Source of the DNA: Eudorina sp. 2006-703-Eu-15
Taxonomy: Eukaryota > Chlorophyta > Chlorophyceae > Chlamydomonadales > Volvocaceae
Length of the DNA: 64,000 bases
Direction of reading: 5' to 3'
Assembly (NCBI GenBank): GCA_003117195.1
Contig: BDSI01000205.1
Coordinates: 62,001-126,000 of the forward strand
Below are positions 9,425-42,100 of this stretch, piece by piece. The notes under the pieces were generated by a model that saw nothing but the letters and a program-made list of their open reading frames with translations, did not search any database and was not told the origin of the DNA. Numbering within the stretch: the stretch's first letter is position 1; the number at the start of each line of letters is the position of its first letter. The position numbers and the translations under genes are program-made.

Positions 9425-10122
<698 letters not shown>

Positions 10123-12382
10123 CCGCTGTGCTGCTTCTGCGTGTGTATGTCAGGGTAACTGAGCCGTGCCAGATCACTGCTCTGGAGCGTCCGTCCGTCG
10201 ACTACGGCCGGGGATGGCTAGACAGCAGGGCGGATACGCTAACGTTTAATTTGCAAGCCAGGCTTACCGACACCTCCGCCTGAGTCATGTATCTAATCTA
10301 TCCCGGCGGGTTACGCCTTTGTGCTAACTCCCGGGTTACGCCTTGGTGCGAACGTATTTATTAACGCCAAGGGCGGGAGATACGGTAGATAGAGCGAGCA
10401 ATGGCAAACGTAATAATACGACATATATACATCATACATTGCAACGATCGATCCCTGAGCTCGCTCGCACATGGCTGGCGGCCGCACGGTGCCGTTTGAA
10501 TAATGCATGCGTGCTCGCTCCATTCGGCAACCCCCGCGCGCACACCTACGTACCGTAGATCATGAGGTTGCCCTGCATCACCGTCGCCCAGCGCCGCACG
10601 CCGCTGGCCCCCGCGGATGCCGGCGGCGTCACTAGCCACGCATGCGCCGCCGCGATCGTTGCCACATACACCACTCCAGCTACAGCTGTACCACATGCAA
10701 GACGGCAGGATGTACGTAAAATGGTTTAGCTTGCAAAGCTGAAGCCCGCCGGCACCAGGCCGATGGTAGCAGCAGCGGCCCGGGCGCTGTTGGCTGCGTC
10801 CCACGGGTTGCAGCTGTCCAACTGCTGCCGATTGCACGGTGGCGTCACCCGCACCACCGTGAACGATGGAGATGCCAACGTGGCCATGCCGTACGAGCAC
10901 TGCGAGAGCTTGGCCGCCATGCCGCTGACGAGGAGGCTGCGGACGTCGGTTTCTGAGAGCGTGGCCGCGCAGCCGCAGGCCCTGTAGTCCAGGATGACCA
11001 CCAGGCTCCGGTTCGGGTCCATGGGAGTGTGCGACCGGGCAGCATGGGATGCCCGTCCACGAAATGGAGCTGCAGGTCCCCGTGGCGGGGTCCACTGGGC
11101 AGTTCTGCGGCGAGCGAGGGACGGCACGCATGGCGGCAAGCACCACGAATGAAGCGAGGCAAATAGGGGCAACGCGGGCCGAGGGAGACTCTCCCTCTCG
11201 GAGAGGGGTCGCGGGGCAGCAGTCGGCAGCGGGAGGAGACGAGGGCGGGGGCGAGGGAGGGCGGGCGGGGCCGAGGGAGGGAGGGGGCGCGGAGCAGGGG
11301 ACGGAAGGAGGGGACGCGGGCCCGTTTGTAGATAGTTGGCGGGGATTGACCGACGGACGGGCAGGTAGGACGTGGCGGATCATGGCGAGCGAGCCGCCCT
11401 GCGATTATTAGCCGCACGCACACGACACATAACGCGCACCGACACACGTGCCGCCGCCCGCCGTGCAGCCTGACAGGTTCTATCTCGCTGCTGTACCTAG
11501 GTTGTCACTCATGCGCGAGAAGTGCACGACATAAGGGACGCAAGGATTAAGCGACGGACTCAGCGGCGGCGGAGAGTGCATGTGCTACATTCGTAGTTAC
11601 ACAGGCATGTGCTGTACTCGCTGGACAACATCAGCGGTCGGTAGGTAATTACTGCTGATCATTAACATCATATCCACTGCTGCCATGGAGGCGGCAAAAT
11701 GTGTGGGTGTTGATGTAATGTATATCTGTGCGTGCAATCCACATGATGATAGCTCCGCGGCTGCGTGGGATAGATTGTACGTACTCACGATGTTTACCCA
11801 CGCGCCCGGCTGAAGGATGGCGTTACTCGAGTCCCACAGCGGCAGCTGGATGTCGCGGCCCAGAGCCACCAGGCGTCCCGTACTGTCCTGCAGGCCGTAC
11901 TGCAGACCGCGGTACGACTGCATCCTGGCAGTGTCCAACTCCAACAGCCAGCCCGAAAGGCGCAGCGGGGCTGCAGCTGCGGGCGGCGTTCGTTACCCGC
12001 GTTCGATGTCACAGCAGAACAACCGATGGACTGACTGACAGACGCCACGTGTCGCATACATGCATAGTCAAGTCGATAATTGAAGGCTCTTTGTGTATCG
12101 CGGGCGTTGCTTGACTTGCCGCAGGCTTTGCATGTCTGTCTGCAGTGAGCGAGCTTGAGCAAATTTAATCAGACCCCAAAGAACGAATCATTCCAAGACA
12201 TACAGCAGATAGATCGAGATAAACCCTGATCATGATGTTGATCCGCTCTGGCTAGGATCGATAGGAAGATCCACCGCACCTGCTGCACCTGACACGCAGC
12301 CCAAGTCCTGCGCTGGTAGTGTCACCAACAATGCCACCAACGGAGCCACCGCGATCACATTTATGAGCTTCTTTGTACGCAT

Positions 12383-16229: not shown

Positions 16230-16652
16230 CCCATGGGTCGTATCGGGTCGGGTCGGGTCGGGCCACCTCTTGGGGGTCTCTCCCCAAGAGGTGGCCCGAC
16301 CCGACCCGACCCGACCCGACCCGACCCGACCCGACCCGACCCGACCCGACCCGACCCGACCCGACCCGACCCGACCCGACCCGACCCGACCGACCCGACC
16401 CGACCCGACCCGACCCGACCCGACCCGACCCGACCCGACCCGACCCGACCCGACCGACCCGACCCGACCCGACCCGACCCGACCCGACCCGACCCGACCC
16501 GACCCGACCCGACCCGACCCGACCCGACCCGACCCGACCCGACCCGACCCGACCCGACCCGACCCGACCCGACCCGACCCGACCCGACCCCCCCCCCGAC
16601 CCGACCCGACCCGACCCGACCCGACCCGACCCGACCCGATCCGACCCATGGG
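16230..16652. repeat. Folded-back CCCGA pentanucleotide array
   Basis: From about 16294 to 16640 there are roughly 68 units of CCCGA, with short breaks near 16390, 16453 and 16590. The left end is the same unit inverted (TCGGG, 16244-16262), followed by GGCCACCTCTTGGGG, a six-base loop at 16276-16281, and the complement CCCCAAGAGGTGGCC. The outer edges are also complementary: CCCATGGGTCG at 16230 pairs with CGACCCATGGG near 16640-16652. The locus is therefore one palindrome whose right arm carries an expanded array. Confidence 0.9.
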
Positions 16653-18749: not shown

Positions 18750-20386
18750 TCATGGCCAGCCGCCACCGCCCGAGCCACCCTCGCCACCAGCGCCTCCATC
18801 CGTTTGGGTCTCAGGGCTCGGCGGCGGCAGGTCTGTGACGCTGCTGGTTGCCGGCGGCGGAGACCCTGAAGCCAGGGGCGTGTCCGGGAACGGAGGCGGG
18901 CTGGCTGGCGGCGGCGGAGGAGTGCGGTACGGCGGCGGGCTCCGTGGGGCACGAGGAGAAGGCGGCGGGGGCCGCGGGGGCCGCGGCGACGGCGGCCGCC
19001 GAGGGCTCGGCGGTGAGCGGGGGGGCGGCCGCGGCGGCGACGGCTCGGCGGGCGGCAGAGGCGCGTTGGGCGGCGCAGGCGCTCCCGGCAGACCTGGGGG
19101 CTCGTTGGGCGCCATCGGGTCGGTCGTGTTGAACCAGTCCGGCCGCGGCGGCTTCTGCGGCGGCGCCGGCGGCTGGGGCATTCCGATGACGCCGACTGGG
19201 CAGCACTCGTACTGGTCGACCTTCTTGTCGTACAGGGAGTACTCGACGCGGTACTTGTTGTACGAAAACATGGCCATGTTCCAGCACGGCTTCTTCAGAT
19301 TGTAGCAGACCTTGACACCGCGGACTGAATTGACATCCTTGAGCCACTGGCTGAGTGGGGTTACCTTCATGATATCCTGACCCTGATGACGCTCATAGTA
19401 GATTGAGCTGACGGAGTAGTTCTTGCCGCTGGGCGTAATGATCTGGACGCTTCCAACAGAGCCGCGGCAGTTCAGGGCTGAGCGATACCAACCGAATGTA
19501 ACCGTGGCGATGACCGGACGGGGGAGGACACGCCCGAGGTAGTGCCGGATTGCGGGAAGCGAGGTGAGGGCAAACGGGAGGGGGGAGAAACACTGGTCAG
19601 CCGTAGAAGAAAGAAAGAGAGGTTGAAGAGTAGGACTGGCTGAATGAGAACTGTATAGGCCGCAAGAAATCGTGAGTGACGACCCGCGGAGCCGCGGTCG
19701 ACGAAGTCGGACGGCGCCCGACGTAAGCTTTTGGCGGGCGATGCGGTGGTTTGACCAGGAGGGCATTTGGTGCAAGGAACCATCCTATAAAATAGTCTCA
19801 CCTGGAAACAACTTGATCTTGTTGATGTAGGCATTCGGGCTGCAACAGCGATAGGGGCCTGAAACGCACTTGTTGCCAGCCTTCAGCTCAATACAAAACT
19901 GTGATGTATTCCTTGCCGCATTAATAGTGTAGCTTGAAAGAACGGCCGAGAAGGGGCTGTACTTGGTGTTTTGCACGCAATCCTCAAACTGGGGGGGCAG
20001 GGAATTCCAAACAACATTCATCTTTGATCGCAACAACGTTGAAGAAAACGGAAGCTCAAGTTGTACACGAACGCGACCCCATACTAAAAGTCCACGCCCG
20101 CGGCTGCGCTTCGTCAAACACATCCAGGAACATCCTGAGTCCAATATGCGTGGAACATAACGAAAAATAACATTTCATTATGACATCTTGCTCTCACCGG
20201 AAACTTCGTGCCGGTCAGGTAGCTGCCTTGCACAAAAACCGTCAGGCAGGCGACGAGTGCAAACAACAGCGCGGTGCGAGATCTGCACGCCCAAGAATAT
20301 TACATAGATTGTTAATTTTTGTCAGTGTGCACGGGTATGGCAGAAGGGGATGGTAGAGGTTGCTACCTGTCGCCGATGCGAGACAT
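18750..20386 (-). CDS. Pherophorin-family extracellular matrix protein (gene 1)
   Basis: Exons: 20386-20367 (ATG, seven codons), 20282-20198 (signal peptide core A-L-L-F-A-L-V-A-C-L-T-V-F-V), 19988-19802 and 19477-18750. GT/AG sites and phases agree at all three introns. The mature part has the cysteine-rich pherophorin domain: F-P-F-E-D-C, F-C-I-E-L, Y-R-C-C-S-P, K-I-K-L-F-P, then L-N-C-R-G-S-V, V-C-Y-N-L, Y-S-L-Y-D-K-K and Y-E-C-C-P. A ~150-residue Pro/Ser spacer (S-P-P, P-P-P) follows, a likely hydroxyproline and glycosylation region. Pherophorins are secreted building blocks of the volvocine matrix and usually have a second globular domain after the spacer. Here the frame ends in a Gly-rich tail at 18750, so that domain is missing or in an unseen exon. 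Confidence 0.85.
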
Positions 20387-21755
20387 GGCTCTCGTTACCC
20401 GCTCCAGCGGGATACGTCCTCAGAACTGAGGCGGCTGCCTAGGAATATTTCTGAGTATGGTTCACAACTAGGATCAAGGCGAAGTGAAGATTTTGCTCTC
20501 AGCACGCTGCTAACAGCTACGTTACTCAGAAAGCGCGACCGAAGATTCTTGTCAGGATATCACAGGGATTTTCAGCAAGAAGTCCGCCGTTAAAACTATA
20601 TAGCAAATGAGGACAAGTGTGAGAACCGAAAGAGGGTGACCGTTCTCACTCAAGAACTCATCCGCATCACCTGCGGATATCTGTGGCGTTATATGCAATG
20701 TTGCTTTCTATTTATACTTCTGAGAAACCATCGCCGGCGAAGCTGCTACGATGCTAGGGCAGTACGCTGTTGTACAAGCCATCCACCATGTCCGCCAGTT
20801 TGCGGGAGTTTAGGAGTTCAGGTAAAATTTTGATTATCTTCAAGATACTGCAGCACTATTCACGAATGATGTTGCGCAACAGGCTTTTCTGCATCAGACT
20901 GACGCCCAACATCTCTCACACCGTAAATTGCAGTCAGACAACAGAGTGATAGACAATTTGTCGTTGTAACGGAGACAGCCTTGCGAGACGGATGCGAGGA
21001 ATTCCGCACAACTGATGCAAATTTGTGCTTTTCGTTGCGCAAGGTTTCACGTGCCGAATTATTGCAAACGCACCGATAAATTACTGTCGACGTATTGATA
21101 TCATAAATGTGATAGACCGTGCCATACCTGCAGAACCTGACTTTACGAAACAATTTTGTGTTGCAAGCAAGACTCTCAACTAAAAAATTAACATCATGGA
21201 ACAAAGAGGCGCACTTGATGTAGATAGACGCTTGAAGGGCAGCGCAGTGTTACTAATCATGCTTTGTAGAGGTACCGACGACCGGCAACTGGCAAACAAA
21301 AGCCCGACTGTCCTACGCACAGCGCGAGCTCACAAAGGCACATTCCAGGTTGGAACGGTGGAGTTCCTAATTCCAGGGTAAAGATGCGCGCGGTTTTGCA
21401 AAAACATCGTTGGCCCGTGCAGCGGTTGACGCGGACCAGGATTACAATGCCAAGGCTCATGAGGCCAGGCCGGCCACAAGGGGCCATGTTAATCATGTAA
21501 ATGTTGAATCATTTTTTGGCTTCTATGGACGGGTCCGTGGGCGAGGCGCTTTGGTGTCGCGCGTGTTGCGCATTTGGTCCGTCCGTCAAGCCTTGCCAAG
21601 CCAGACCACGCGCACGCCTTCGCACGCCGGGTGGCCGGCCGGTCCAACCCCTTCCACTCCTAACCCGCCGACTCAACCGCAGGGCCTGCGAGTTCTTAGT
21701 CTGGGTCGTGTGTGGCACTGCTGCGGACTTACATTGCCACACTGGCAGGCCGTAT
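20387..21755. other. Intergenic stretch upstream of pherophorin 1
   Basis: Moderately AT-rich. It should hold the promoter of pherophorin gene 1, but I see no clear element. A minus-strand frame at 20860-21204 has a possible donor (CTGCAG then GTATGG near 21128) but no recognisable domain. Confidence 0.4.
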
Positions 21756-22043
21756 GACGCCAAGATATACGCAACGGAATAAACAACGCAAAGCAATTCA
21801 CGGTTGCTACCTGATCCCAACTCACGAATCGAACGATCACTCTTTCCCGCTCGATTCCTCACACCTACGGACCGGCTACCGACTGGGCGGCGGTTACAAC
21901 GCGCGCCATAACGCATCGCGACGGAACACCTCACTCGCGACAAAACGGTGGGCTAATGCCACAAACTAACCAACATAAATCCGAATTAGGTAACTGCTGC
22001 TTGCTGCGCAGTAAAATGACGATGACACCCAAACGGCGCGACA
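21756..22043 (-). repeat. 3' LTR
   Basis: 288 bp, identical by eye to 33263-33550. On the minus strand it starts TGTCGCGCCG and ends TTGGCGTC. A 13-bp sequence, CAGGCCGTATGAC on plus, lies on both sides (21746-21758 and 22049-22061), overlapping the LTR end by three bases. Confidence 0.9.
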
Positions 22044-22162
22044 GCTGTCAGGCCGTATGACTGCTCTACTGACGTAATAAGTGCCTAGGGGAGACTCCCC
22101 CCCAAGCGGTCACCCGATGCATGCAGGGTGATCCGCGGCGACTAAGCCACGAGGCACGAACT

Positions 22163-25015
22163 TTAAACCAAATCTTCCACCAAACCGCTATCTTTCACGA
22201 TCAGCTGCTTGACCAACGGCGACGCGAAGATGATCACCCACATGAACAACGCCTCCTCGGATGGAACAAGGGGGCAGCGCAGCATAAGCAAACGACCCTG
22301 CCGCTGCAACGACTTCAACCAGCGCATGCGCAACTCATCCGCCGTAGCGATATATGACACAGGGACACGCGCCACCACGAAACTTTGCGTGAAACGGACT
22401 GCCGCTGGCAAGGCCAGATCAAGCACATGACCGGAAGCAGACAAGAACACAGACTGGACGGCGGACACCTGCCGCTGTACTGACTCATAAAACGACGGCA
22501 CCAACGGCCCCTTAGGATCGGCAGACTTACCTTTCATGATGCGGACACCATGCGACATCAAAACCGACCGCACCGCCGGTGAGACCTCCCAAGGGCAAAC
22601 GACCTCCCCCACCATGCCCAGATCCAACGCCGACTTCAACACATCGACATGCTCGCTGGGCACGCTGGACTCGGTGAAACTGCTGGACAGCGCATTGGAG
22701 ATGAGTGCAACCTTGGACGCGGAGTGCTCCCCAGGCATGGCCATAGAGAGTGCAGCGGCTACCGCCCCCCCAGAGTCCAAGCTCCAGTCCCCTGACTGGA
22801 CGGAGGTCACCGCCGCTGAGGCGCGCAGAACACGTGTTGGGCGTGGACTAGTGGGGGCAAGCATAGTGCGTAGCTGTCGTACCGTGACCATTTCGCTAGC
22901 ACCATTCTGATACACGACGTCAAACAAATGAGTGCGGCCCTGAAGGCCTACGTAAGTGGCAATGCCGGATACAGCACCTTGCGCACCCATCCCGGACCCT
23001 GTGCGAAGCACCCTGGCACCCTGCAGATGCTTTAGGTACGAAGGGGGCTCAGGCACAGGCTTGGGGGACGCATCGGGAACAGGCACCTTGGCAAGAGGCC
23101 TGGCATCAATCTGCTGGGGAGTGACACCTTGAGCGACGCACTCGGGGCACACCCAGGTACCCTCGGGGATACGACGCAACGGGGGAGTGAGACAGTACGT
23201 GTGCCAGCCCTTCCCGCAGCCATCGCATAGCAACATCCACTCGTCACCGGACGGGGATCGGCACACTTCACAAGGGAGCAAAGCAGAGGGTTTAGCAAGA
23301 CGTGGATCCACAGTCTCATCCCGAATGGGCAGGTGGCAAGGAGCACAATCCTTCACGTGAGATTTGAGTGTCAACCCGTTCTGACCCTGAAGAACCAAAA
23401 CACCGGTGGGCCGCACCTCAATGACCCGCAGGATAGTGGGCCTGGCGGCGGGGTCCAGCGTCGTCTGAGAAGTAGTATTGCGATAGTAGACATAGTCCCC
23501 AACCTCGAACTCGCGCATTTTTGGATGGTAGCCACCCCCACGAAGAGCAGCATACCGAAGGGTGTCCCTGTGCTGCGCGATCAGCAGGTTATCCCCAGCA
23601 ATGGAGATGCGCTGCCGCATGGCCTCCCCTCGTGAGAGAAGCGATGAGGCGGCTAGCTCAGGGTTGTCGAAGGAGATGTTATCCGCGAATCGGGGTTTGA
23701 TCGCAGGGGGAATGGTGGGCTCTACACCATGCATGATGAGGTAAGGGCTGAACCCCGTGGACTGATGCACGGAACAGTTATAACCCAACATGACGTACGG
23801 TAACAATTCATCCCAATCCCTGCCTTCAGCCCGCTGCCGCGCCATGCGACGGAGCGCCCTTTTGCAGGTCTGGACCACCCGTTCCGCCAAACCATTGGCC
23901 TGCGGGTGGTTGGGTGACGTCTCACGATGATCTATCAGCGAATTCAGCAAGAGCAACGAAAAGGCACCCTTCCACTCACTACCCTGGTCGGTGCAGACCT
24001 CGGCGCAGGCACCGTAGCGCCCTAGGATATGGTGCAAGAACGCGGAAGCCGTGCGATCGGCCTCCTTATCAGGCAACGGAACAAAAACTGCGTACTTAGA
24101 GAAATGCTCTACGCAAATCATCACGTAGACATTCCCCGAGTTGGTGCGAGTGAACGGGCCACAAAGATCCACGCCCCAGCGATAGAACAAGCCCTGTACC
24201 GGCAATGGATGCAGGTCAGGCGACGGGGCTGAAAACGAGGTATTAACACGATCACAATGCTCACAGTGTTTGACAAAGTTGACTACGTCTCGGTAGACGC
24301 CATGCCACCAGTGACGGGTAAGCAGCAGCGCAACAGTACGACGCACCCCGAAATGGCCAGTCTCCTCGTGCGTGAGTTTGATCAGTTCCACACGATCAGA
24401 AGGCTTGGGAACCAGACGTGCTTTGGAATCGTTGAACACGCGGTACAACTCACCCCCTTGCATGCGGTAGGCACGAACCCTCCGCGTGACACGCCTCTGC
24501 TCGGACGGGGGCAGGTTGGACACGTGCGTGCCCGTACGAAGGAAATGCATAGATGCTTCATCATCCCAGATATCCGGCCATCGTCCCTGGGACCCCGAAG
24601 AGTCCTCCTGCTCCGCTTGGACAGCCGCGGCGAAGACCGTGGGCCAAGGGGAAACAGGCTCGCAGGGAAACAGGGGATAGGCCAGGCCATGAGACGGCTC
24701 AGGCACAGCTGGGGACGAGTCACTCAGAGCACACGCAGCAACAACCTCATGCAGTGGCGTGTTGGAAAGAACTCGGCACAAAGACAACACACCAACGGTG
24801 GAGGCCAAGTCGGGCGCAAGACCCAGAATGCGGCGCTTCTGAGCCTCGCTTACCTCGCGAGCCTCTGTGGCCTCATCAGGGTAGCCCATGGCCCGGGCAC
24901 ACTCAAGGACTGTTAGACTGCCCAATTCCGGCTCACAGGGATCGAACACAAGATCATATTGGTGCTGCAGCTCCGGACGACTTAGGCTGGGAGCCACGCA
25001 CAAAGGCTCACCCAC
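22163..25015 (-). CDS. Methyltransferase C-terminal motifs, integrase and PHD finger (pol frame 2)
   Basis: The frame overlaps the upstream pol frame by 34 bp and is offset by -1; its first possible codon is a GTG, so it is probably reached by frameshifting. Residues ~25-75 hold the end of a cytosine methyltransferase: L-T-V-L-E-C-A-R-A-M-G-Y-P and G-L-A-P-D-L-A-S-T-V, matching the C-terminal end of DNMT3-type enzymes. The integrase zinc motif follows near residue 212 (H-E-E-T-G-H and C-E-H-C), then the catalytic D (G-V-D-L-C-G, ~279), D (T-D-Q-G-S-E-W, ~341) and E (N-G-L-A-E-R, ~377). A C4HC3 PHD finger occupies ~578-622 (C-E-V-C, L-L-C-D-G-C, G-W-H-T-Y-C, W-V-C-P-E-C). A Tudor-like segment (V-S-G-I-A-T-Y-V-G, F-D-V-V-Y-Q-N-G) and ~200 unassigned residues end the protein. 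Confidence 0.88.
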   Translation of the reverse strand: MGEPLCVAPSLSRPELQHQYDLVFDPCEPELGSLTVLECARAMGYPDEATEAREVSEAQKRRILGLAPDLASTVGVLSLCRVLSNTPLHEVVAACALSDSSPAVPEPSHGLAYPLFPCEPVSPWPTVFAAAVQAEQEDSSGSQGRWPDIWDDEASMHFLRTGTHVSNLPPSEQRRVTRRVRAYRMQGGELYRVFNDSKARLVPKPSDRVELIKLTHEETGHFGVRRTVALLLTRHWWHGVYRDVVNFVKHCEHCDRVNTSFSAPSPDLHPLPVQGLFYRWGVDLCGPFTRTNSGNVYVMICVEHFSKYAVFVPLPDKEADRTASAFLHHILGRYGACAEVCTDQGSEWKGAFSLLLLNSLIDHRETSPNHPQANGLAERVVQTCKRALRRMARQRAEGRDWDELLPYVMLGYNCSVHQSTGFSPYLIMHGVEPTIPPAIKPRFADNISFDNPELAASSLLSRGEAMRQRISIAGDNLLIAQHRDTLRYAALRGGGYHPKMREFEVGDYVYYRNTTSQTTLDPAARPTILRVIEVRPTGVLVLQGQNGLTLKSHVKDCAPCHLPIRDETVDPRLAKPSALLPCEVCRSPSGDEWMLLCDGCGKGWHTYCLTPPLRRIPEGTWVCPECVAQGVTPQQIDARPLAKVPVPDASPKPVPEPPSYLKHLQGARVLRTGSGMGAQGAVSGIATYVGLQGRTHLFDVVYQNGASEMVTVRQLRTMLAPTSPRPTRVLRASAAVTSVQSGDWSLDSGGAVAAALSMAMPGEHSASKVALISNALSSSFTESSVPSEHVDVLKSALDLGMVGEVVCPWEVSPAVRSVLMSHGVRIMKGKSADPKGPLVPSFYESVQRQVSAVQSVFLSASGHVLDLALPAAVRFTQSFVVARVPVSYIATADELRMRWLKSLQRQGRLLMLRCPLVPSEEALFMWVIIFASPLVKQLIVKDSGLVEDLV

Positions 25016-25719
25016 TTTGTTCCGGGGGTACGTGCCCGGGGATCAGGCGCTTGCGCGAGGCGCACAGTGCGCCCTGGGGAGAGCACATCCTGGAGCACGG
25101 CCGTGGTGGGCGGCTGCACCCCAGAGATCACCGCGGCAAGCGGCTTTGGCGGGGAGAGGTTTGTCCAATGCGTGGATACGCGATGCGCAAGTGCGCCAAA
25201 TTGTACTGCATCAAACGTGATGGGCTCACCGAACGCTCTCGTGACTCGTGACTGGGCAGCACATGCGTTCTTCCAGGACTCACGAGGCTGCTCACAAACA
25301 AGGAAATAAGCGGGCGAACGCCGCTGGACGCGCTGCAAAGTCTGAATAATGCGAACGACATGATCCACGACGCAGGACTCGGGTGCAAGGGAGCCCGGTT
25401 CCTTACCTACGTCGTGCCAGCACCAGCTCGCAAACACCACCCACTGGGAGCCGTCACAAGCTCCAGTGGCCATGAGTGACTCCTCCGTTACTTTGCGGGG
25501 ATCAAGAGGAAGGTCCAACCACACACGCTTGTAGGAGTCAGGGGCGAACTGCGCGGGGTACTCAGCGCTCAACCGATCCAAGCGCGCAGACACGATTTGA
25601 GCGGCAACTGGATCTGGTTCAGACGAGATGTAGCGGTTCACCCGGACGCCGCACCGAAGCAGGGCCTCCAGACCAGCACACATGCCCCCCAAGGGCTCGT
25701 AAACAGTGACTCCCTTACC
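24790..25719 (-). other. DNMT3-like cytosine-C5 methyltransferase domain spanning two frames
   Basis: Motif I: V-Y-E-P-L-G-G-M-C-A-G-L-E-A-L with the acidic S-S-E-P-D after it. Motif IV, normally around Pro-Cys, reads F-A-S-W-C-W-H-D, keeping the Cys with Trp in place of Pro. Motif VI: F-L-V-C-E-Q-P-R-E-S-W. Motif VIII: F-G-A-L-A-H-R-V-S-T-H-W-T-N-L. These lie at the end of the reverse transcriptase frame (residues ~885-1128). The closing motifs lie at the start of the next frame. Order and spacing follow DNMT3-type enzymes. Activity is uncertain because of the altered motif IV. Confidence 0.75.
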
Positions 25720-28368
25720 CAAGGCTTGAGAAAAGAATGCGCGGGACGTAGGATGTGAAGTATTTGCGAAAAGCTCGGGATTGGCGCGCGCAGCTGAGCG
25801 GACCCACTTGACCGCCGAGGCATGAACGGCGTCACGACGCTCCCTGACCAAGTCAGACTCCTTCGATGGAGGCATGTCTATCACATCAGACGGAAGGCCC
25901 AGATGGCCCGACAGAAACTGGTCAGGGACAAAGCAAAAGTCGTCGGAAAACTTAGCGTGCGGCACGTGGGAAGACAGTGCGGTGCGCACTGCTGTGCACT
26001 CCTGAGATGCATGCGACAGGGCAGCAGACACACGCCGAACGCCGGCCAAATCCTCCTCATCCAACCGAGCACCGGTATTATCAGCGGTCGTCTCCTCAGG
26101 ATGTCGCGACAACACATCCGCATTTTGATGCTTGAGACCCGGGCGATGGATAACCTCAAAGTCGTATTCTTGCAGTACAAGAGCAAACCGGGCGTACTGG
26201 CCCGTGAGCCCGTCCGCACTCATGAGGTACGTGAGAGGTTGATGATCAGTGACCAGGCTGAACTTCGGACCACCCAACAAGTGATGTCTAAACATTTTCA
26301 CTGCCCACACAGCCGCGAGCATCTCACCTTTGTAGCTGCTGTAATTCCGCTCATGCTTATTGAGTGATCTGCTGATGCAGGCACACATGTATTCGTTGCC
26401 CTGATCGTCCAGCTGACCCAGCACGGCACCCAACCCCTTGTTGGAGAAGTCGGTGTGCAAGATGAGGGGCTTGGAGTAGTCGATAGGGCGAAGAATCAAC
26501 CCCTCCTTGGAGAATACGGACTTGAGCGCGGTGAAAGCTGCATCCTGAGCGAGACCCCATACCCATGGCTGATCCTTCTTGAGAAGCACCGTGAGATCGG
26601 TGGTGAGCAGGCTCATGTTGGGGATATAGCACCGGTAGTAATTGATGAAACCCAAGTGAGCGCGAAGCTCGGACACATTGCGAGGAGTGGGAAGGTTCAG
26701 GATCGCGGACACCTTGGCGTGGTGAGGGCTGATTCCATCCGCGCTCAGGTTGTGACCCAAATACTCAATGACATCAGCTCCGAAAATGGATTTATCCGGG
26801 TGCGCACGAAGACCACATGAGTGAAGGGCGTCGAGGACAGCAGCGACATGCTGCACATGTTCCTCGGGGGAATTGCTGAAGATTAAAACATCGTCAATGT
26901 ACGCACGGGCGCAGTGGTCTAAGCCGGCCTTAGCCAACTCGTAATCCATGACCCGTTGAAACTTGGCAGAAGCATTTTTCAACCCGTACGGCATACGGCC
27001 GTACATCATCAACTTATTACCCATCCAGTACGCAGTTTTGGGCTGGTCCTGCTTGGCAATAGGGATCTGCAGAAAGCCCTGCCTAAGGTCCAACTTAGAG
27101 AAAACCTTCGCCTTAGCGCACTGATGGAAAATGTCCTCCGGGCGGTGGAGTCCATACCTGTCAGATCGGGTATGCTTGTTCACCGGTCGGTAGTCTTGCG
27201 CCATGCGGTGATCCGTCCACAGGCCCGTGTCAGGATCCTTCTTGGCGGCGATTACCGGATTGACAGCGCACACCGTGGGACCCGTATGCTCAAGAACTAT
27301 GCCCGCCTTGACCAGCTCCGCCGTTTTCTGCATGATGACCTCCTTTTCCTTCGGCGAGTACCGGCGCGGCGGTTGAACGATGGGGCGATCCGTGTCCAAA
27401 TCTAAGGTGAACGGCCCCTGCTCACCCGAGTAACCGGGCAGCTCCTCCATGCTATACGCAAAAGCCTTGCCCTTGCGCATGCGAACCGCCTCGCGCAGTG
27501 CGTGTGACGCACTGGGCTCAAACAAGGAACTATTTCCCCAAATCCATCCCCCATCGCTGTCCTTCACGTAGCGCTGATAGGCAGCGGCGGCCGAATTTCC
27601 CTCAGGGGTGAAAGATCCCACACTGGCCATAGCCATGGCGTGACCCCGCGTCTCCCATCGCGCATAGTCCCTAGGATCTGTCTCTGCCCAAGGATCATAT
27701 CCCACACCGCCGTACTCAGGCAGACGAACACCCCCGTGTTGCAAGAGAATGCCCCCGGAAGTCACGACATTGGAAGATATAGATGCAAGGTCACTGTCAA
27801 GCACGGCGCCGTGCATGGCACCAGCACCCGCAGCGAGTGTGAACAGCAAACAAGTGACGAGCGCAAAGGAAGCAAGGCTGAACCAGGTCCGCCGAGCGGG
27901 TGGGGGACTGCTAACACTCTTCTGACGGCGCCCCAAACGAGCCCGCTTGCGCTTACCCTTGCGCTCGACGAATGACCGGGTCGAAAGCGGTGGTGTAACA
28001 GGGAACGAGGCAGTCGCCATGCACGCTGACTCGATCAGCCGATCCAACACCACCCCCACCGGCTTTGCCGCGGCGCAACAGAATGCGGTGGACGTGGAGA
28101 TCAACGTGAGCAGGCTGGTGAGGAGGTACGTGAGGACGCCCTTCCACATGCCCCAGCTGGCAATATGCCTTGGCAGAGACGTTACGCACTTGGATGGCTG
28201 AGCTCCGTCCGGTGAGGGAGATGCTGCTGGTGGCGGTGCGGCATCCCCCGTGGAGAAGTGCATGGGCTCGACTGGCATTCTGGCAGCGTTGGCTGGCTTT
28301 AGTGAGGGAGATGCTGCTGGTGGCGGTGCGGCATCCCCCGTGGAACAGTGCATGGGCTCGACGGGCAT
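24982..28368 (-). CDS. Reverse transcriptase, RNase H and methyltransferase N-terminal part (pol frame 1)
   Basis: 1,128 codons from an ATG at 28368. Residues 1-60 contain a 30-residue tandem repeat. Two hydrophobic segments follow (residues ~77-98 and ~162-182) around a basic stretch (~137-150), unusual before a reverse transcriptase. RT spans about 300-530: D-Y-R-P-V-N-K, K-L-D-L-R-Q-G-F, M-P-Y-G-L-K-N-A, and Y-I-D-D-V-L near 487. The connection and RNase H follow (H-T-D-F-S-N-K-G-L-G-A-V near 636, T-D-H-Q-P-L, H-R-P-G-L-K-H-Q-N-A-D-V-L-S-R). From ~885 a cytosine methyltransferase domain begins and runs into the next frame. All key RT and RNase H residues appear present. The product copies element RNA into DNA. 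Confidence 0.92.
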   Translation of the reverse strand: MPVEPMHCSTGDAAPPPAASPSLKPANAARMPVEPMHFSTGDAAPPPAASPSPDGAQPSKCVTSLPRHIASWGMWKGVLTYLLTSLLTLISTSTAFCCAAAKPVGVVLDRLIESACMATASFPVTPPLSTRSFVERKGKRKRARLGRRQKSVSSPPPARRTWFSLASFALVTCLLFTLAAGAGAMHGAVLDSDLASISSNVVTSGGILLQHGGVRLPEYGGVGYDPWAETDPRDYARWETRGHAMAMASVGSFTPEGNSAAAAYQRYVKDSDGGWIWGNSSLFEPSASHALREAVRMRKGKAFAYSMEELPGYSGEQGPFTLDLDTDRPIVQPPRRYSPKEKEVIMQKTAELVKAGIVLEHTGPTVCAVNPVIAAKKDPDTGLWTDHRMAQDYRPVNKHTRSDRYGLHRPEDIFHQCAKAKVFSKLDLRQGFLQIPIAKQDQPKTAYWMGNKLMMYGRMPYGLKNASAKFQRVMDYELAKAGLDHCARAYIDDVLIFSNSPEEHVQHVAAVLDALHSCGLRAHPDKSIFGADVIEYLGHNLSADGISPHHAKVSAILNLPTPRNVSELRAHLGFINYYRCYIPNMSLLTTDLTVLLKKDQPWVWGLAQDAAFTALKSVFSKEGLILRPIDYSKPLILHTDFSNKGLGAVLGQLDDQGNEYMCACISRSLNKHERNYSSYKGEMLAAVWAVKMFRHHLLGGPKFSLVTDHQPLTYLMSADGLTGQYARFALVLQEYDFEVIHRPGLKHQNADVLSRHPEETTADNTGARLDEEDLAGVRRVSAALSHASQECTAVRTALSSHVPHAKFSDDFCFVPDQFLSGHLGLPSDVIDMPPSKESDLVRERRDAVHASAVKWVRSAARANPELFANTSHPTSRAFFSQALGKGVTVYEPLGGMCAGLEALLRCGVRVNRYISSEPDPVAAQIVSARLDRLSAEYPAQFAPDSYKRVWLDLPLDPRKVTEESLMATGACDGSQWVVFASWCWHDVGKEPGSLAPESCVVDHVVRIIQTLQRVQRRSPAYFLVCEQPRESWKNACAAQSRVTRAFGEPITFDAVQFGALAHRVSTHWTNLSPPKPLAAVISGVQPPTTAVLQDVLSPGRTVRLAQAPDPRARTPGTKWVSLCAWLPA

Positions 28369-28389
28369 GCTGGCAGCGTTGGCTGGTTC
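28212..28389 (-). repeat. 90-bp tandem duplication in pol N-terminus
   Basis: Two copies with a 90-bp period start at 28212 and 28302 and differ at only a few bases, giving a 30-residue protein repeat around M-P-V-E-P-M-H. The repeat lies across the overlap of the protease-like and pol frames. Confidence 0.9.
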
Positions 28390-29000
28390 CCCCCCAGATC
28401 GGAACCATAGGGAGACGAGCTGTCCGTGGTCGCGCTAACACAGGCAACGGCCAGCTGCGCCGTTTTGTTCGTGCTGCCTATGACCGGTTGCATGGGAATG
28501 GTGACACGATATTCCGGGTACTCAACCAGGTTGGGGTGAAAGTGCAGACGCGGCGTGGGGTAGGAATCCAAGCCATCGCCCCACAGCTTAGCTTGCTCGT
28601 TGCCAACCAGGAGATGGAACAAGTGCGGTGCCACGTCCACCACCAGGGTCTGGGTGAACGGCACCCTGGTGGCGTGCGGTGTGCCCGGCAGGAGCGTCAG
28701 GTAAAGACCGCTCACATCCAACTCGCCGCGCACACTGCATCCTAGCTGCGCAGAAGTTGACAGCCGGGTGTTTGTGGGTTTGATGGGCAGGTTGTGGGCG
28801 CGTGCTACCGACGTGGGAATGAGGCTGGCGGTTGCCGCAAAATCACGAAGTGCAGGAACATGCATCTGCCGGCCATCACGCTCAATGGCACAGGCCTGCT
28901 TGGGGTAGTAGTACATGCCCGCCGGCGTGGTAAGGTACCGCGCGGCCAGAGAGTTGCGTCGTAAGGCAGTCTCACGCTCCGAAACGGGAATAGAACTCAA
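28299..29000 (-). CDS. Retropepsin-like protease frame with altered active site
   Basis: A ~233-codon frame, offset -1 from gag and opening just before gag's stop, overlaps the pol frame by 70 bp. It has no good ATG at its start; the first codon near 29000 is TTG. The fold region is retropepsin-like: A-T-A-S-L-I-P-T-S-V-A-R-A-H-N-L-P-I, then L-T-L-L-P, V-V-D-V-A-P-H and L-L-V-G-N-E-Q. The residues expected as D-T/S-G-A read D-F-A-A (minus strand, near 28840), so only the Asp of the triad remains. Either the protease is inactive in this copy or this lineage uses a changed site. Location between gag and RT supports its identity. Confidence 0.6.
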   Translation of the reverse strand: MSSIPVSERETALRRNSLAARYLTTPAGMYYYPKQACAIERDGRQMHVPALRDFAATASLIPTSVARAHNLPIKPTNTRLSTSAQLGCSVRGELDVSGLYLTLLPGTPHATRVPFTQTLVVDVAPHLFHLLVGNEQAKLWGDGLDSYPTPRLHFHPNLVEYPEYRVTIPMQPVIGSTNKTAQLAVACVSATTDSSSPYGSDLGGNQPTLPACPSSPCTVPRGMPHRHQQHLPH

Positions 29001-30994
29001 GGTCCGCGGGGCACCGACGCAGAACCCGCGACCTCGTAGGCAAAAGTATCAGTGGAGAAGTGCTTACTTACGACGCTTGACATGGTCTGCCCCCCCTGAC
29101 ATGAGGGACTTGTCAACAAGCTGATGCCCTGCGGCGTTACATGCGTGGCCAGCTTTGGTACCACCGACTGTGCATCGTCTTGCGTCGTATCCGGCACGGA
29201 AGCGGGCTCACTGCCACACGTGGCTGCGGCCACACTGGAGTCACCCGGGACTGGCACGGGTTCCTCAGCAGCCGGCGCCTGAGCGTTAACCACGCACTTG
29301 GCAAAATCGAGCACACTCATGCGCGACAGACGCTGAATGGACACATCGTCTGAGGGTGGCAACGACGGCTTTCGCACAGGTTCCTTGGGGACCGCAGGGA
29401 CAGGGTACTTATCTGCGTCAAGCGGCTGCGGCTCGAAGCTCTTAGGCACCTGCTGCCTCGCCGCAACTGCGGCTGCTCGTTCCAAGACAGCCCTGACGGC
29501 GTCGGGGGTGCTCTTGGCGAGCTCCATGGCCGCGGCAAGCTGCTGTTCGGTGTAAGACAAAAAAGTGCACGGTTCGCGAACCTCCGATACGCGTCCGTAT
29601 GGGTAGTAGCTGGGCAAATCCAGGAACGTGCGCGACTCAGAGCTGGGCCCCGGCAGCTCCGCCTCCGCACAGGCGAGCGCGGAGCTGCTGGAGGCTGAGA
29701 CGTCATCCAGCTTGAGGGTAACAAGCGCGGACGCTGACTGGTAATCGTCCTCAGCGAAATCATCTTCCTCGACGCACGCGGCGGCCGCCACCTTTGGGGC
29801 TTTCGCCTTCTGCAGCTCGAACAGCACCTGGAGGGCTGGGCTGCTGGGCTTGAAGCCCGCGGGCGCGAGCTCCGGATGCTCGATGAAGCACCGGTCACGC
29901 AAGTGACCGGATAGGAAGCAGAAGTCACAATGCAGCTCGCTGCGAGGGCGCCGCGGCCCACCCTGCTGGCCCTGCCGGGGTGGGCCAGAGCCACCCGATC
30001 CGGATGGGCCAGCCCCAGCTACCGCGGGACGGCGCGGTTTCTGGGCTGGGTTAGGCTGCGCGGGCTTCTGGTTTGCTGCGGCGCTTTGCGTCAGCAGTGC
30101 GACGAGTTGCTGCACGATCCCGTCCGCCGCACCGGTTGAGACCATGGCGGGACGGGACCGGACCTGGCTCTGGAGCACGCGACAGTCAGCAGTGGTGTGG
30201 CTGGTGTTCCAGCCGTGCTTCTCGCACAGGAACATCCCCTTTTTGTCAGAGGACCCCTTCTGCTGCGTCGTGCGCGGCTTGTCCGCCTTCTCGGTCTTTT
30301 CCGCACGCTTGGCTGCGCTCGTGGGCTTTCGCTCATCCGGGCTAAGGTTCTCCCAGATGCGGTCCGCATCCGTGACGGTCTGGGCCATGCGGTTGTACCA
30401 GTCCGTGCGCGGGTACCGCATGAGTTCGCGCCTAACGTGTTCGCGCACGGTCGGGTGCAGACCCTCTACGAAACGCTCCGCCAGCTGATACGTGCTGACC
30501 CTGCCCGCTAAGCCGGCGTGCAGGGTTCTAAGGCGTTGGTAGTAGTCGCTGGGCTTCCCGTCGCCCTGAACGGCGCTAGTGAATTCGCCGTGATCCGCCT
30601 GCTCGGCCTCAGCTTTGAAATGCTCAGTAAGAATATGCTTGTAGTAATCGAACAGCTGCCACGCGGTAGCCACGGGAGCGACAGGAGCGACGGGCTGAGC
30701 GGCAGGCACGCCCGCAGCGGGCGCCGCTGCGGGAGCCTGCTGCGGTTGAGCCGCTTGTACGTGCGCGGCTGCATCGGCTAAGAAGGTGCTCTTCTTTGTG
30801 CCCCACCAGTCCGCATGCCTACTGTGGGGCTTCGGCAGGCTATCTAGCACTTGAAAGAAGGTGGCCGGCGTGACCGACCCGGCGCCGCGTTTCAACTCTA
30901 CATCCACCAGCGCCTTTTGTTTCACCTCGTGTAAGAACCCATCCACACCCTTACAGTGAAAGGGTTCTAGTACGGGAAAGCTACCGCCACTCAT
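28997..30994 (-). CDS. Gag polyprotein with CCHC zinc knuckle
   Basis: 665 codons from an ATG at 30994 (M-S-G-G-S-F-P-V). The frame is open further upstream, without another ATG, to a stop at 31451-31453, so a longer spliced form is possible. A capsid-like region is seen around residues 120-220 (L-F-D-Y-Y-K, D-Y-Y-Q-R-L-R-T-L, E-R-F-V-E-G-L-H-P-T-V-R). A zinc knuckle C-D-F-C-F-L-S-G-H-L-R-D-R-C (CX2CX4HX4C) lies near residue 350. Ala/Pro-rich linkers surround it. Gag binds element RNA and builds the particle. It ends in T-G-A at 28997 just inside the protease frame. Confidence 0.85.
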   Translation of the reverse strand: MSGGSFPVLEPFHCKGVDGFLHEVKQKALVDVELKRGAGSVTPATFFQVLDSLPKPHSRHADWWGTKKSTFLADAAAHVQAAQPQQAPAAAPAAGVPAAQPVAPVAPVATAWQLFDYYKHILTEHFKAEAEQADHGEFTSAVQGDGKPSDYYQRLRTLHAGLAGRVSTYQLAERFVEGLHPTVREHVRRELMRYPRTDWYNRMAQTVTDADRIWENLSPDERKPTSAAKRAEKTEKADKPRTTQQKGSSDKKGMFLCEKHGWNTSHTTADCRVLQSQVRSRPAMVSTGAADGIVQQLVALLTQSAAANQKPAQPNPAQKPRRPAVAGAGPSGSGGSGPPRQGQQGGPRRPRSELHCDFCFLSGHLRDRCFIEHPELAPAGFKPSSPALQVLFELQKAKAPKVAAAACVEEDDFAEDDYQSASALVTLKLDDVSASSSSALACAEAELPGPSSESRTFLDLPSYYPYGRVSEVREPCTFLSYTEQQLAAAMELAKSTPDAVRAVLERAAAVAARQQVPKSFEPQPLDADKYPVPAVPKEPVRKPSLPPSDDVSIQRLSRMSVLDFAKCVVNAQAPAAEEPVPVPGDSSVAAATCGSEPASVPDTTQDDAQSVVPKLATHVTPQGISLLTSPSCQGGQTMSSVVSKHFSTDTFAYEVAGSASVPRGP

Positions 30995-31792
30995 GTCTTC
31001 CCAGTCGTACGGCTGAGGAGGTGGCTGTGTATGTCTAGGCCGCGTAACAAACTCAAGGAACTTGGTCCACTGACTTGCGAGATGCTTTTGCTGGCGCGCG
31101 AATACAGAATTGCTAGGGTTAACAGAAGTACCAGCCCGCCCGGCCCCCGACGGAGGAAGAGCAGCTACGCCGGACCCGACGCCCTGACTCCCTCGTAAGG
31201 AACGACCCGACGCAAGGGCTGATGAAGGCCCACTATCACCCTCAGGATCACCCGAGCCTGACCCACCCGGAGACCCTGATGCTGAAGTCCTCTTAAAGTC
31301 CTTGCCCTCCCTGGAACTTACTTCCTGCGCGTCGCGCGCGGAGTTGGAGCGATATAACTGATTGGTGGCGCCACGTGGCGGGTTGCGGCGCAGGGGAGCT
31401 GAAGAAGGTCCAGAGTCTTGTGACGAATCCAGATTAATACCGAAGTCCCGTTACACGGTGCCAGATGCCAGGTCCAGCGCCAATATAGCCAAAAGAGCAG
31501 CCACTGAGGTCTTAAGCCCGTACAGTTCGATTCCAACTCAGAACAGCCACAAGGGCCTCACAATCGTACAGTTCAATGCCAAATCTGAGCAGCCGTGAAG
31601 GTCTTATGCTCGTACAATTCGTAATATCCTATTGTGACGGCGCGTCGAGGGACGCCCGAGGCCTGAATGGCAAATCAATCCTGCTCACAGGCAGAACGCC
31701 CGACACGGCCAAGTCGGCCCGCGACCCCTATGCTGGGCCTACGGCGAGCACCACTAGGTGATCACACCTCCAGCGTCGCTCACACTCGCTCC

Positions 31793-32350: not shown

Positions 32351-33262
32351 ACTACTTTAGAAATGATGGACCAATTCCTGGTGCAGGTGAACAACTGAGG
32401 ACAGGCAAAACAAGCTGAAGACTCGGACACTGTAGATCCAATTGCAAACGGTTCAGACCTCCTAATCGATAAAATCAAAATGGCACACACGGCTGTGCGT
32501 CACACAGCAGGAAATAAACGAGTGACAGGAGGACAGGCTCCTAAGTGTTGCGGCGATGGCAACGTTCGACCTACTGATCAGGCAGGTGAATTGCGCGGCA
32601 CGGGCGCGCTGTATGGCTACCTAAAAGGACAGCTTCTTAGATGAAAATGATGACGGGCTTACCGACGGAACGAGCAGCCCTCTGCACCCTTTGGGACGGA
32701 ACCTCGAACAAGGGCGACGACAAAACAAAGCCGAAATCTGCGCGTCCGCAGACCCGGACCCCAGAATCACTCACTTTGTTTTTCCCTTCTTGAAGCCTTG
32801 ACGGCTTTTCGGCTGGGATGCGGTGTTAAAAGGGAATGGAGGTGCAAGCGGACGACCACAAGCTTCGACGATGAAGAGCTGTTGCGAAGGCACACCACGT
32901 GCGCTCGCACAGCGCTGCAAAGCAGAAAGCTGTAAGTCCCCTTCTCACCGCGCCGGCTGTCACAACAGAGCGTGAGGATCGCGAGTTCCCACGCGCTGAG
33001 CTGCCGGTAAGAGATGCCAATGTGAGTAGTGTTGTGATCAGGAGCAGAATACTTGTGCGATCAAAATGCACAGGGCCTTTAGTCTAGCTCAGAGGACGTT
33101 TACAATCATCCAGACAGAGCCGAAAAGCGATGCTTACCAGCACGCTTTTGGCTAATAAGCGCAAACGCAGACGTACGACCTCGCGGGTTCGAACGCGTCT
33201 CAAGTTCGTAAGGCCGACTGGAGTCTTACCGCAACGCGGCGCTCCAATACACACGCAAATAA
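32351..33262. other. Retrotransposon leader
   Basis: Long leader between the 5' LTR and the first gag-related frame. I see no PBS directly after the LTR; the nearest TGG-start sequence (TGGAGCGCCGCG, minus) is about 17 bp downstream. No coding region is recognised. Confidence 0.5.
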
Positions 33263-33550
33263 GACGCCAAGATATACGCAACGGAATAAACAACGCAAAG
33301 CAATTCACGGTTGCTACCTGATCCCAACTCACGAATCGAACGATCACTCTTTCCCGCTCGATTCCTCACACCTACGGACCGGCTACCGACTGGGCGGCGG
33401 TTACAACGCGCGCCATAACGCATCGCGACGGAACACCTCACTCGCGACAAAACGGTGGGCTAATGCCACAAACTAACCAACATAAATCCGAATTAGGTAA
33501 CTGCTGCTTGCTGCGCAGTAAAATGACGATGACACCCAAACGGCGCGACA
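33263..33550 (-). repeat. 5' LTR
   Basis: 288 bp identical to the 3' copy at 21756-22043. It should contain the element's promoter, but no TATA box is obvious. Confidence 0.9.
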
Positions 33551-39163: not shown

Positions 39164-42100
39164 CTAGGCGTGAGCTGCATAGCTCCCATTCCCAAACAGG
39201 GCGTGAAGCAATCCCCTCGTATTTTTGTATTGAGTAGTACCGTTACAGTGTGGATAGGCTTCCGTTAGCTGCCTTACCACGGGTGGAATGTCGGGGTTGC
39301 AAGCGCTTGACAGCATGGCAAAGTCATTGCCGCAGTCCGACAGGCTGAGCAACGCCAGCGTCGTTTCCTGTGTTGCCGTATCGCCGTACAGCGTCATCAG
39401 CCGCCCGGCGGCATCGGCCGACGGCAGCGTCATCGTCAGCACCATATTTGAACCGTCTGCGATCGCGCAGCTGTACGACACCTGCGCCGCCACGGCATTG
39501 TCGTTCAGGGGCAGCAGTACAAGGGCGCCGTACAGCTTGCAGACGTCGTCGGTGAAGCCCTGATTGGCGGCGGCGGCGCGGCGGATGCTGACGGAGACGT
39601 CACAGGCCGGCGGCGGCGAGGCCGGCGTTGACGGCGGCGGCGGCGGCGGGCGTTTCTTGCCGGACGGCGGCGGCGACGGCGGCGGCGGCGGCGGTGACCT
39701 GGGAGTGGGCGGTCGAGTTCTTGGGGCGGGCGAGGGCGGCGGCGGCGGCGGCGGACTCGGCGGGATCGACGGTGGCGGAGGCGGCGGAGGCGAAAACGGC
39801 CGCGGCGGCCGCGGCGACGGAGGTGGCAGCGGTGTCGGCGGAGGCGGTGGTCGCTTCTTGTTCGTAGGCGACGACGGCGGCGTCTGGGGTGTGCCTGGCG
39901 GCGGCGACGGCGGTGGCAAGGGCGGTACCGGCGGCGGCGGCGGCGACTTCTTACGTGGCGGCGGCCGTGGCGGCAACATTGGCGGCGGCCGCGGTGGCGA
40001 CTGCAGCCGCGGCGGCGGCGGCGACGATGGCGGGGGCGGCGATGGCGGGGGCGGGCTTGACTTGTTCGTCGAAACCGTCGGCGGCGGCGGCGGCGAGCGC
40101 TTCTGCTTGGGCGGCGGCGGCGGCGGCGGCCGCTCGGGAAACTCCGGCGGAAACGGCCACTTCGACGGCGGCGGCTGAGACGGGAAGCCCGGCTGCGAGG
40201 GCGCGAACGGCACCGTGCCCGACGGGCAGCACTCGTAGTTGTTGGCCTTCTTGTCGTACAGGGAGTACTGCAGGACATTTGGATAGTACGAAAAAGAGCT
40301 GGCCTGCCAGCAGGGCGCCTGCAGGTTGAGGCACAGGATGGCGCCTTCGGCACTGGCGACGGAACCCAGCCATTGGGCCAGCGGCGTGACCTTCAGGATG
40401 TCGTACCCTTGGTGCTCCTCCCAGTAGTACGACATGATGAGGTTGCCGTTGATGAGCGCGCTGGCGACGGAGCCGCGGCAATTGAGGGCTGCGGCGGCGC
40501 GTCGGCGATGTGGGGGGCAGCGGCAGGGGACGCGGGGGGCAGCGGAAGGTGAGGGTGGTACGGCGAAGGAAGAAACCGTACACACGGCATACGAAAACCG
40601 GCATTAAGCTGCAGCCGGACCTCGGGTGTGTCGCACTCAACTGCCAATCCACTATTCTCCATCTTGCATCCAATTCATGGGCGCGCCCAACCCAACCCAA
40701 CCCAACCCAACCCAACCCAACCCAACCCAACCCAACCCAACCCAACCCAACCCAACCCAACCCAACCCAACCCAACCCAACCCAACCCAACCCAACCCAA
40801 CCCAACCCAACCCAACCCAACCCAACCCAACCCAACCCAACCCAACCCAACCCAACCCAACCCAACCCAACCCAACCCAACCCAACCCAACCCAACCCAA
40901 CCCAACCCAACCCAACCCAACCCAACCCAACCCAACCCAACCCAACCCAACCCAACCCAACCCAACCCAACCCAACCCAACCCAACCCAACCCAACCCAA
41001 CCCAACCCAACCCAACCCAACCCAACCCAACCCAACCCAACCCAACCCAACCCAACCCAACCCAACCCAACCCAACCCAACCCCCGGCGCCCCGCGGCAG
41101 ATGCTCGCGCACCATACCGTAACCCGCGCCGCCGTCCTCTCCTACATTTATCCCCCAACCCCCATCCCCATATCCCCGCAGCCATAATCCCCTCCATGCC
41201 GCGGCACCCCTCATCAAATGGGGATTGTTCCCCGCTCCGACCGGGTACGGTGGGGAGCCAATCCCGCCAGCTCGGCCCGCCGCCCGGTCGCGCAGTCCCC
41301 CAACGTCTGCCGCGACGTGCGCACGTGCCTGCCGTACATGCCGGACGTTCCGGTCGTACGACCTCCCGACGGACATCCCCTGCACGCCCGTGCCCTCCCC
41401 CCTAACCCCCCATCCCACCCCCCCCACCCCACCCCCACACACACCCACCCTAACCAAATCAAAACAGAACCCCCCCTGGCACCCCCCGGCTCTCACCACC
41501 GAATCAACGAAATGAAGTCCCTGCCGCAATGTGTCCCCCCTCCCCCTCCCCTCTGCACGTTTCTGTCCTCCCCCCTTCCTGCCTGGCTCCTTCGCTCGCA
41601 GGGCACCTCCCCTCCTCCAAGCCCCCCCTCCCAGACCACCGGACGTTGCCGCGACCTCCCCCCCTCCCAGACCACCGGACGTTGCCGCAACCTCCCCCCC
41701 TCCCAGACCACCGGACGTTGCCGCAACCCCCCCCCTCCCGCAGACCGCAGACCGCAGACCCCCCTTCCGCGCCTGCCCCACCTGGGAACACCTTGAGCTT
41801 GTTGATCCCCGTGCTGCAGCACCGGAACCTCCCCGGGGTGCAGCTGTCCATGACGTTGATCTGCGGGGGCCGCGGGGGGGGAGGAGGGTCAAATGAGGTA
41901 TGAGGAACGCTAGGGCAAGGCGTTCCAAGGCGGCCTCCAATAACAGGATCCGAGATCCGCGACGGATCCGAATCGCCATCGATATGCCATCGAACAAATA
42001 CAAAGCGCACAGAGCAGGGACATCGAGACCCCCCAACGTTACACAAAGAGGGGGAGGGAGCCACAGCGAGATGACCCGACCCGACCCGGCCCGACCCCAC

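Follow-up and report, generated by a model that had tools for sequence, protein, structure and literature searches.

A Ty3/Gypsy retrotransposon of the volvocine green alga Eudorina sp. 2006-703-Eu-15 is described here, located on the minus strand of a 64,000-nucleotide stretch of contig BDSI01000205.1 (positions 62,001 to 126,000; hereafter the window, to which all coordinates refer). Its Pol polyprotein contains a domain resembling the DNA methyltransferase (DNMT) DNMT3, located at 24767..25746 (minus strand), which is recognized by its motifs, by a profile match and by the fold of its closest unbroken relative. The domain is real and DNMT3-type in fold, and sequence homology indicates that it belongs to a wide green-algal Gypsy lineage rather than to a lone volvocine capture. 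In this lineage, RNase H is followed by the DNMT3-type domain and then by integrase, and a PHD finger usually comes after the integrase. As judged from aligned residues, most relatives keep the catalytic residues, whereas these are replaced in the window family and in its volvocine and Chlamydomonas reinhardtii relatives; as read from the copies, the disabled domain remains in frame in several families. The best reading is that the window domain is a retained pseudoenzyme similar to DNMT3L, in an element of the KnitGypsy-Dnmt3 kind.

The DNMT3-type domain and its lineage

The DNMT-like stretch sits between RNase H and integrase, and in the window copy it is split over two frames. Motif I (25657-25704), motif II (25603-25635), an altered motif IV, FASWCWHDVG (25405..25434), with Trp at the position of the catalytic Cys, an altered motif VI, FLVCEQPRESW (25273..25305), without Glu-Asn, and motif VIII, FGALAHRVSTHWTNL (25156..25200), with His-Arg retained, share one frame, and the DNMT C-terminal motif (24863-24919) lies in the other; all are encoded on the minus strand. 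This is the DNMT3-type order, and the initial annotation had correctly recognized motifs I, IV, VI and VIII and the C-terminal motif in it, between RNase H and integrase. The frame break, near 24982-25042, also splits genome copy C38 (L009); in most other long copies the domain reads through in one frame. Since the break is common to two copies, an element carrying it may have spread, perhaps with the aid of intact ones.

A Pfam search of the window stretch gave no match to DNA_methylase (PF00145), even at an E-value of 1. A profile built from five domains of the window family (three genome copies and two relatives) matched DNMT3A at a whole-chain E-value of 2.8e-6. Below E 1, this profile found 26 sequences, every one a DNMT3 protein (25 at 0.013 or less, one at 0.17), followed by glutaryl-CoA dehydrogenase at E 1.7-1.8. 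This score sums weak pieces, none of which is significant alone (best i-Evalue about 0.6). A wider profile matched DNMT3A at 2.1e-18, including one stretch at 1.2e-7. The expectation that profiles would recognize the domain thus held for the family profile and failed for the Pfam one, and the expected methyltransferase fold was found in the closest unbroken relative, as a DNMT3-like class I fold.

The genome search covered 3033 contigs (181 Mb) and returned at least 117 matches to the domain, split pieces being counted separately and the weaker matches having 26-30% identity. When the RT-RNase H region (RT, reverse transcriptase) of the window element was used as a query, all 26 matches of 348-351 residues with at least 78% identity had a same-strand domain match behind them, so the presence of the domain in other copies, on which the initial annotation had staked its claim, was borne out. 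Among the matches listed, Gypsy copies at 36-40% RT identity had no domain match. Pfam detected RT and RNase H in eight of nine long open frames, the integrase zinc domain in seven and PHD in five; L025 and L027 show no integrase, and L028 shows no RT. The long frame of L026 contains a second reverse transcriptase behind the PHD finger (residues 2154-2433), probably a nested insertion.

In the protein collection, seven relatives were found through the window family and 107 through one relative, P0005, giving 112 different proteins; the 107 are nearly all Gypsy polyproteins. The nearest named relative comes from Pleodorina starrii, also of the Volvocaceae (62% domain identity), and others come from Monoraphidium neglectum, Haematococcus lacustris, Chlamydomonas eustigma and C. 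reinhardtii (30% identity). Additionally, a partial relative was found in Cymbomonas tetramitiformis and one is filed under a bacterial bin; Klebsormidium is not named among the 107. Precomputed PF00145 matches exist for 38 of the 107 (counted from the table), and of four relatives scanned directly, P0048 and P0018 pass and P0005 and P0047 do not. RT precedes the domain in all 105 rows, database and genome, in which both parts were measured, and a rough PHD pattern follows it in 88 of the 112 database proteins. The separate volvocine capture considered in the initial annotation is unsupported, because the domain belongs to this wide lineage. P0048 also contains a G-patch domain between methyltransferase and integrase (residues 1184-1223).

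Possible sources of the domain were also searched. A mixed-profile protein search for stand-alone donor genes, in which the 7998 candidates with the most shared words were scored, yielded six metagenome proteins, at least one of which has RNase H beside the domain. An exon-wise PF00145 search for host DNMT genes, from which spliced DNMT1 or DNMT3 could escape, gave two short matches, one of them DNMT2-like by eye and the other of uncertain kind. In viral contigs, none of 63 pattern matches was a relative by tblastn.

Loss of the catalytic residues

The catalytic residues were compared in an alignment of 130 rows, comprising 112 database proteins and 18 genome copies. Four proteins (P0001, P0002, P0003 and P0112) form the volvocine/C. 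reinhardtii set; of the other 108 database rows, two do not cover motif IV and 106 span the region. All 106 keep Cys, Glu and Asn. Their motif IV mostly reads GWxCQDLS, as against SWCWHDV in the window family. The Trp two residues before the Cys occurs in 94 of the 106 and the Asp two residues after it in 103, and both are kept in the window family. These conserved residues fix the register, which places the window-family Cys one residue early and Trp at the catalytic place; the initial annotation, reading the Pro-Cys site as Trp-Cys, was off by that one residue. The motif VI columns hold Val-Cys in the multiple alignment or Cys-Glu in a pairwise alignment, Glu-Asn being absent either way. With the catalytic Cys and Glu-Asn missing, self-methylation by the window family, as formerly suggested, finds no support.

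Similar losses are found throughout the copies of the host genome. WCWHDV is present in all 12 window-family alignment rows spanning motif IV and is invariant over five sequences that are 59-80% identical to the first. The catalytic column reads Trp in P0001, P0002 and P0003, Ala in C. reinhardtii, and Ser, Gln or a gap in other families of the host genome, L026 having Cys there; L024, L025, L027 and L028 keep Glu and have lost Cys and Asn. Eight further genome copies also lack the full triad (L033 reads WCWQDV, and L035 resembles L026), and five more, the window copy included, read WCWHDV and VCEQPR. Altogether, none of the 30 genome copies read at motif IV has Cys plus Glu-Asn. They comprise 17 of the 18 alignment rows (L019 is cut off), the eight (L038 is unreadable at motif VI) and the five; L020 was fetched and left out of the alignment, motif IV not being found there. 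When the whole genome was scanned for the pattern W-x-C-[QE]-D-[LF]-S, there were four matches (against one in the reversed control) and none coincided with a domain match, variants replacing the Trp not being searched.

These data bear on two accounts in which the domain would still act on a substrate. In the first, the Cys of WCW would be the nucleophile after a one-residue shift, and the domain would still methylate cytosines. Cys and Glu do adjoin their expected places, WCWHDV is widely kept in the window family (apart from L033 and L020), and motifs I, II and VIII look usable. Nevertheless, the fixed positions of Cys and Glu-Asn in all 106 spanning relatives, together with the different ways in which other disabled families lost them, make an active enzyme quite improbable. 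In the second, S-adenosylmethionine would still be bound, with RNA or protein as the target, or would only be sensed. In the window family, motif I still has its Gly-Gly and motif II its acidic residue, but motif I is changed too in L024 and L026, disabled families that stand further off, and, as judged from these alignments, such altered chemistry seems very improbable.

Selection on the domain was estimated from raw ratios of nonsynonymous to synonymous differences (pN/pS) with a codon bootstrap, YN00 being unworkable on most of the saturated pairs. Between copies C73 and C10, whose domains are 80% identical, the ratio was 0.156 (0.122-0.193) in the domain, 0.062 in RT and 0.027 in integrase. 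Between C73 and the C14 family it was 0.370 in the domain and 0.107 in RT, and for the C1-C109 pair it was 0.310 (0.235-0.399). These ratios indicate that the disabled domain is under purifying selection, though less constrained than RT and integrase. Kept fold, lost catalytic residues and purifying selection thus occur together here, as in a pseudoenzyme.

The domain could instead be a functionless passenger that persists only as the middle of a polyprotein needing an open frame. Its evolution outpaces that of RT and integrase and that of the domain in intact relatives: at 70-80% RT identity, domain identity is 65% in 22 intact pairs and 33% in 22 disabled pairs; at 80-90% it is 0.71 (8 pairs) and 0.61 (31 pairs), and above 90% it is 0.87 (3 pairs) and 0.81 (9 pairs), the pairs sharing branches and hence not being independent. 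This fast evolution also fits slow decay. Motif losses that differ between families and the frame break in the window and C38 copies speak for a passenger as well. In contrast, a pN/pS whose upper bound of 0.193 is far below 1, the invariance of the altered WCWHDV across diverged sequences and the domain match in every close RT copy argue for retention, so that a mere passenger is unlikely.

The number of losses was addressed with trees of RT and of the domain. RT rows were stretches of 350-700 residues (107 of 124 kept), and 95 of these 107 remained in a more careful tree after removal of 12 near-duplicates; the domain tree used rows of at least 240 residues (127 of 130). The RT tree, which is blind to the decayed domain, separates the disabled rows into three places. 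One joins the window family to L021 and C. reinhardtii and has P0048 as its sister; another pairs L024 with L027 and has P0047 as its sister; the third is L026, whose position is weakly supported. P0047 and P0048 keep their motifs. The careful tree requires three changes, and one change was found in none of 200 bootstrap trees, although the bootstrap had not fully settled. Forcing the disabled rows into one RT clade cost 63.6 log units (approximately unbiased test, p-AU 0.0129), the group being defined by motifs and the test chosen after the first trees. Three places and the rejection of one clade point to repeated loss. The loss was therefore probably repeated, with two well-supported losses likely and a third possible.

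A different history is suggested by the domain tree, where all 21 disabled rows lie on one side of a single branch (approximate likelihood-ratio support, SH-aLRT, 99), which would mean one loss. A dead domain could then have spread among Gypsy backbones by template switching, giving the three places in the RT tree. That branch carries a long-branch warning, the catalytic column varies among the disabled domains (Trp, Ala, Ser, Gln, Cys or a gap), and for two of the RT groups the sister rows are intact. A single loss with later exchange is accordingly given only a minor chance beside the repeated inactivation preferred here.

The element and its surroundings

The element is bounded by long terminal repeats (LTRs) on the minus strand, the 5' LTR at 33260..33550 and the 3' LTR at 21753..22043. 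They form a direct repeat with 290 of 291 bases alike, the sole mismatch being the third base from the outer edge. Between them lies the Ty3/Gypsy order of gag, RT, RNase H and then integrase, with gag and the integrase core under Pfam cut-offs. The gag-like open reading frame (ORF) of 817 amino acids occupies 28997..31450 (minus; Retrotrans_gag, E 0.014, under the cut-off). The first pol ORF (24982..28434, minus) encodes RT (RVT_1, 5.9e-24), RNase H (RT_RNaseH, 1.6e-31) and DNMT-like motifs I-VIII. It is overlapped by the second (22163..25042, minus), which encodes the DNMT C-terminal motif, the integrase zinc domain (Integrase_H2C2, 5.2e-15), the integrase core (rve, 3.4e-6, under the cut-off), the PHD finger behind the integrase (23138..23272, minus; PF00628, 1.3e-11) and C-terminal domains. 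The initial annotation had described identical LTRs and long open frames; the LTRs agree apart from one base, and the frame is broken inside the domain.

The C-terminus of Pol holds a second, decayed methyltransferase-like domain (22166..22690, minus). Its structure as predicted by AlphaFold2 (predicted local distance difference test, pLDDT, 83.6; predicted template modelling score, pTM, 0.83) matches class I methyltransferases in Foldseek and VIA. Inspection of the element flanks by eye showed no plain short target-site duplication. Each end of the 3' LTR carries the 13-base repeat CAGGCCGTATGAC (21746-21758 and 22049-22061). Upstream of RT, Pol has a strongly hydrophobic stretch (27817-27882, minus), and by eye similar ones precede RT in P0005 and P0007. 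The N-terminal part of pol contains a tandem duplication of 85-90 bases (28212-28386), with copies 95% alike.

Elsewhere in the window, an ORF at 18750-19784 (minus) has a long proline-rich stretch that by eye resembles pherophorin-like wall proteins of volvocine algae. Long repeat arrays (GCCT, CCCGA and CCCAA) lie at 9425-10124, 16295-16647 and 40686-41083.

Known systems and proposed role

An LTR Gypsy element of Klebsormidium nitens, KnitGypsy-Dnmt3, likewise has a Dnmt3-type domain as part of its Pol polyprotein (de Mendoza et al. 2018, PMC5890265). It differs in its charophyte host, in a DIRS-like repeat arrangement as opposed to the plain LTRs here, and in its key functional residues, which by description rather than by sequence comparison are conserved there and lost here. 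SymbioDIRS-Dnmt3 and SymbioLINE-Dnmt also encode cytosine methyltransferases under purifying selection, but they belong to DIRS and LINE (long interspersed nuclear element) classes of dinoflagellates (PMC5890265). These dinoflagellate retrotransposon enzymes are reported to perform de novo CG methylation, shown for those of SymbioDIRS, and the authors propose that such an element methylates its own complementary DNA (cDNA) (PMC5890265).

The green-algal and metagenome Gypsy polyproteins (P0004, P0005 and P0008-P0111) share domain homology and the position of RT before the domain; unlike the window family, they keep the catalytic residues in all rows spanning motifs IV and VI. Mammalian DNMT3L, which aids DNMT3A, has the DNMT3 fold, lacks the catalytic residues and is linked to a PHD-type reader. 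It resembles the window domain in all three structural features and differs in being a host gene rather than an element-encoded domain.

Copia and DIRS elements with DNMT3 have been reported from streptophytes and dinoflagellates (PMC12344493). Dam- and Dcm-encoding Ty3/Gypsy and DIRS elements are stated in general terms to occur in green algae (PMC6338049), and on that statement part of the present finding may already be in print. Green-algal transcriptomes reportedly yielded no DNMT3 (PMC9998398), and a paper that mentions Gypsy elements of core-Reinhardtinia does not contain the word methyltransferase (PMC8226300). The literature search, mostly at title level, found no report of Gypsy elements bearing a methyltransferase in volvocine algae or in any other named chlorophyte. 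As far as this literature extends, two things are new: that a lineage with a PHD finger is widespread among chlorophytes, and that the catalytic residues were lost while the fold was retained.

A captured DNMT3 whose ancestral role was methylation, disabled in volvocine elements and retained within the integration complex without a catalytic role, is the probable explanation, though well short of certain. The ancestral enzyme may have methylated the element's own cDNA or its insertion site. In Chlamydomonas and Volvox, methylation is about 1% and is tied to transgene silencing in Volvox (PMC8566409); CG methylation is given as 5.4% in C. reinhardtii and 4-5% in Chlorella (PMC9861306). In volvocine hosts, where low CpG methylation is tied to the silencing of foreign DNA, an active enzyme could be useless or harmful. 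Active self-methylation would then be counter-selected and the enzyme inactivated, probably several times. By analogy with DNMT3L, the fold may be kept as a DNA- or partner-binding module acting with the PHD finger. A more specific version is offered tentatively, with slightly less than even confidence: that volvocine Gypsy elements repeatedly and independently turned DNMT3 into a DNMT3L-like pseudoenzyme that serves integration with the PHD finger, since self-methylation invites silencing, and that other green algae keep the active enzyme.

Apart from the evolutionary rates and the domain tree, several points weigh against this account. P0001 and P0003 were assigned to the volvocine/C. reinhardtii set by likeness alone, and the search that retrieved most relatives used a single intact query, P0005, and was thereby biased towards intact sequences. 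L026 and L035 have Cys in the catalytic column, in both cases without Glu-Asn. Several pairs approach saturation at synonymous sites, and the starred branches of the quick RT tree force only two changes. KnitGypsy-Dnmt3 showed no activity in a yeast assay that its authors termed inconclusive (PMC5890265), so intact residues need not mean activity. The similar Chlorella figures imply that low methylation alone does not single out volvocines. The binding partner, DNA binding and PHD specificity are putative.

With the present data, Gypsy elements that carry a methyltransferase, known from one charophyte, extend to a wide green-algal lineage. Some of these related elements have the catalytic residues and others lack them, which offers a natural comparison, by which the gain of a retrotransposon from a methyltransferase becomes testable. 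If the fold is indeed kept after catalysis is lost, part of that gain would be something other than methylation.

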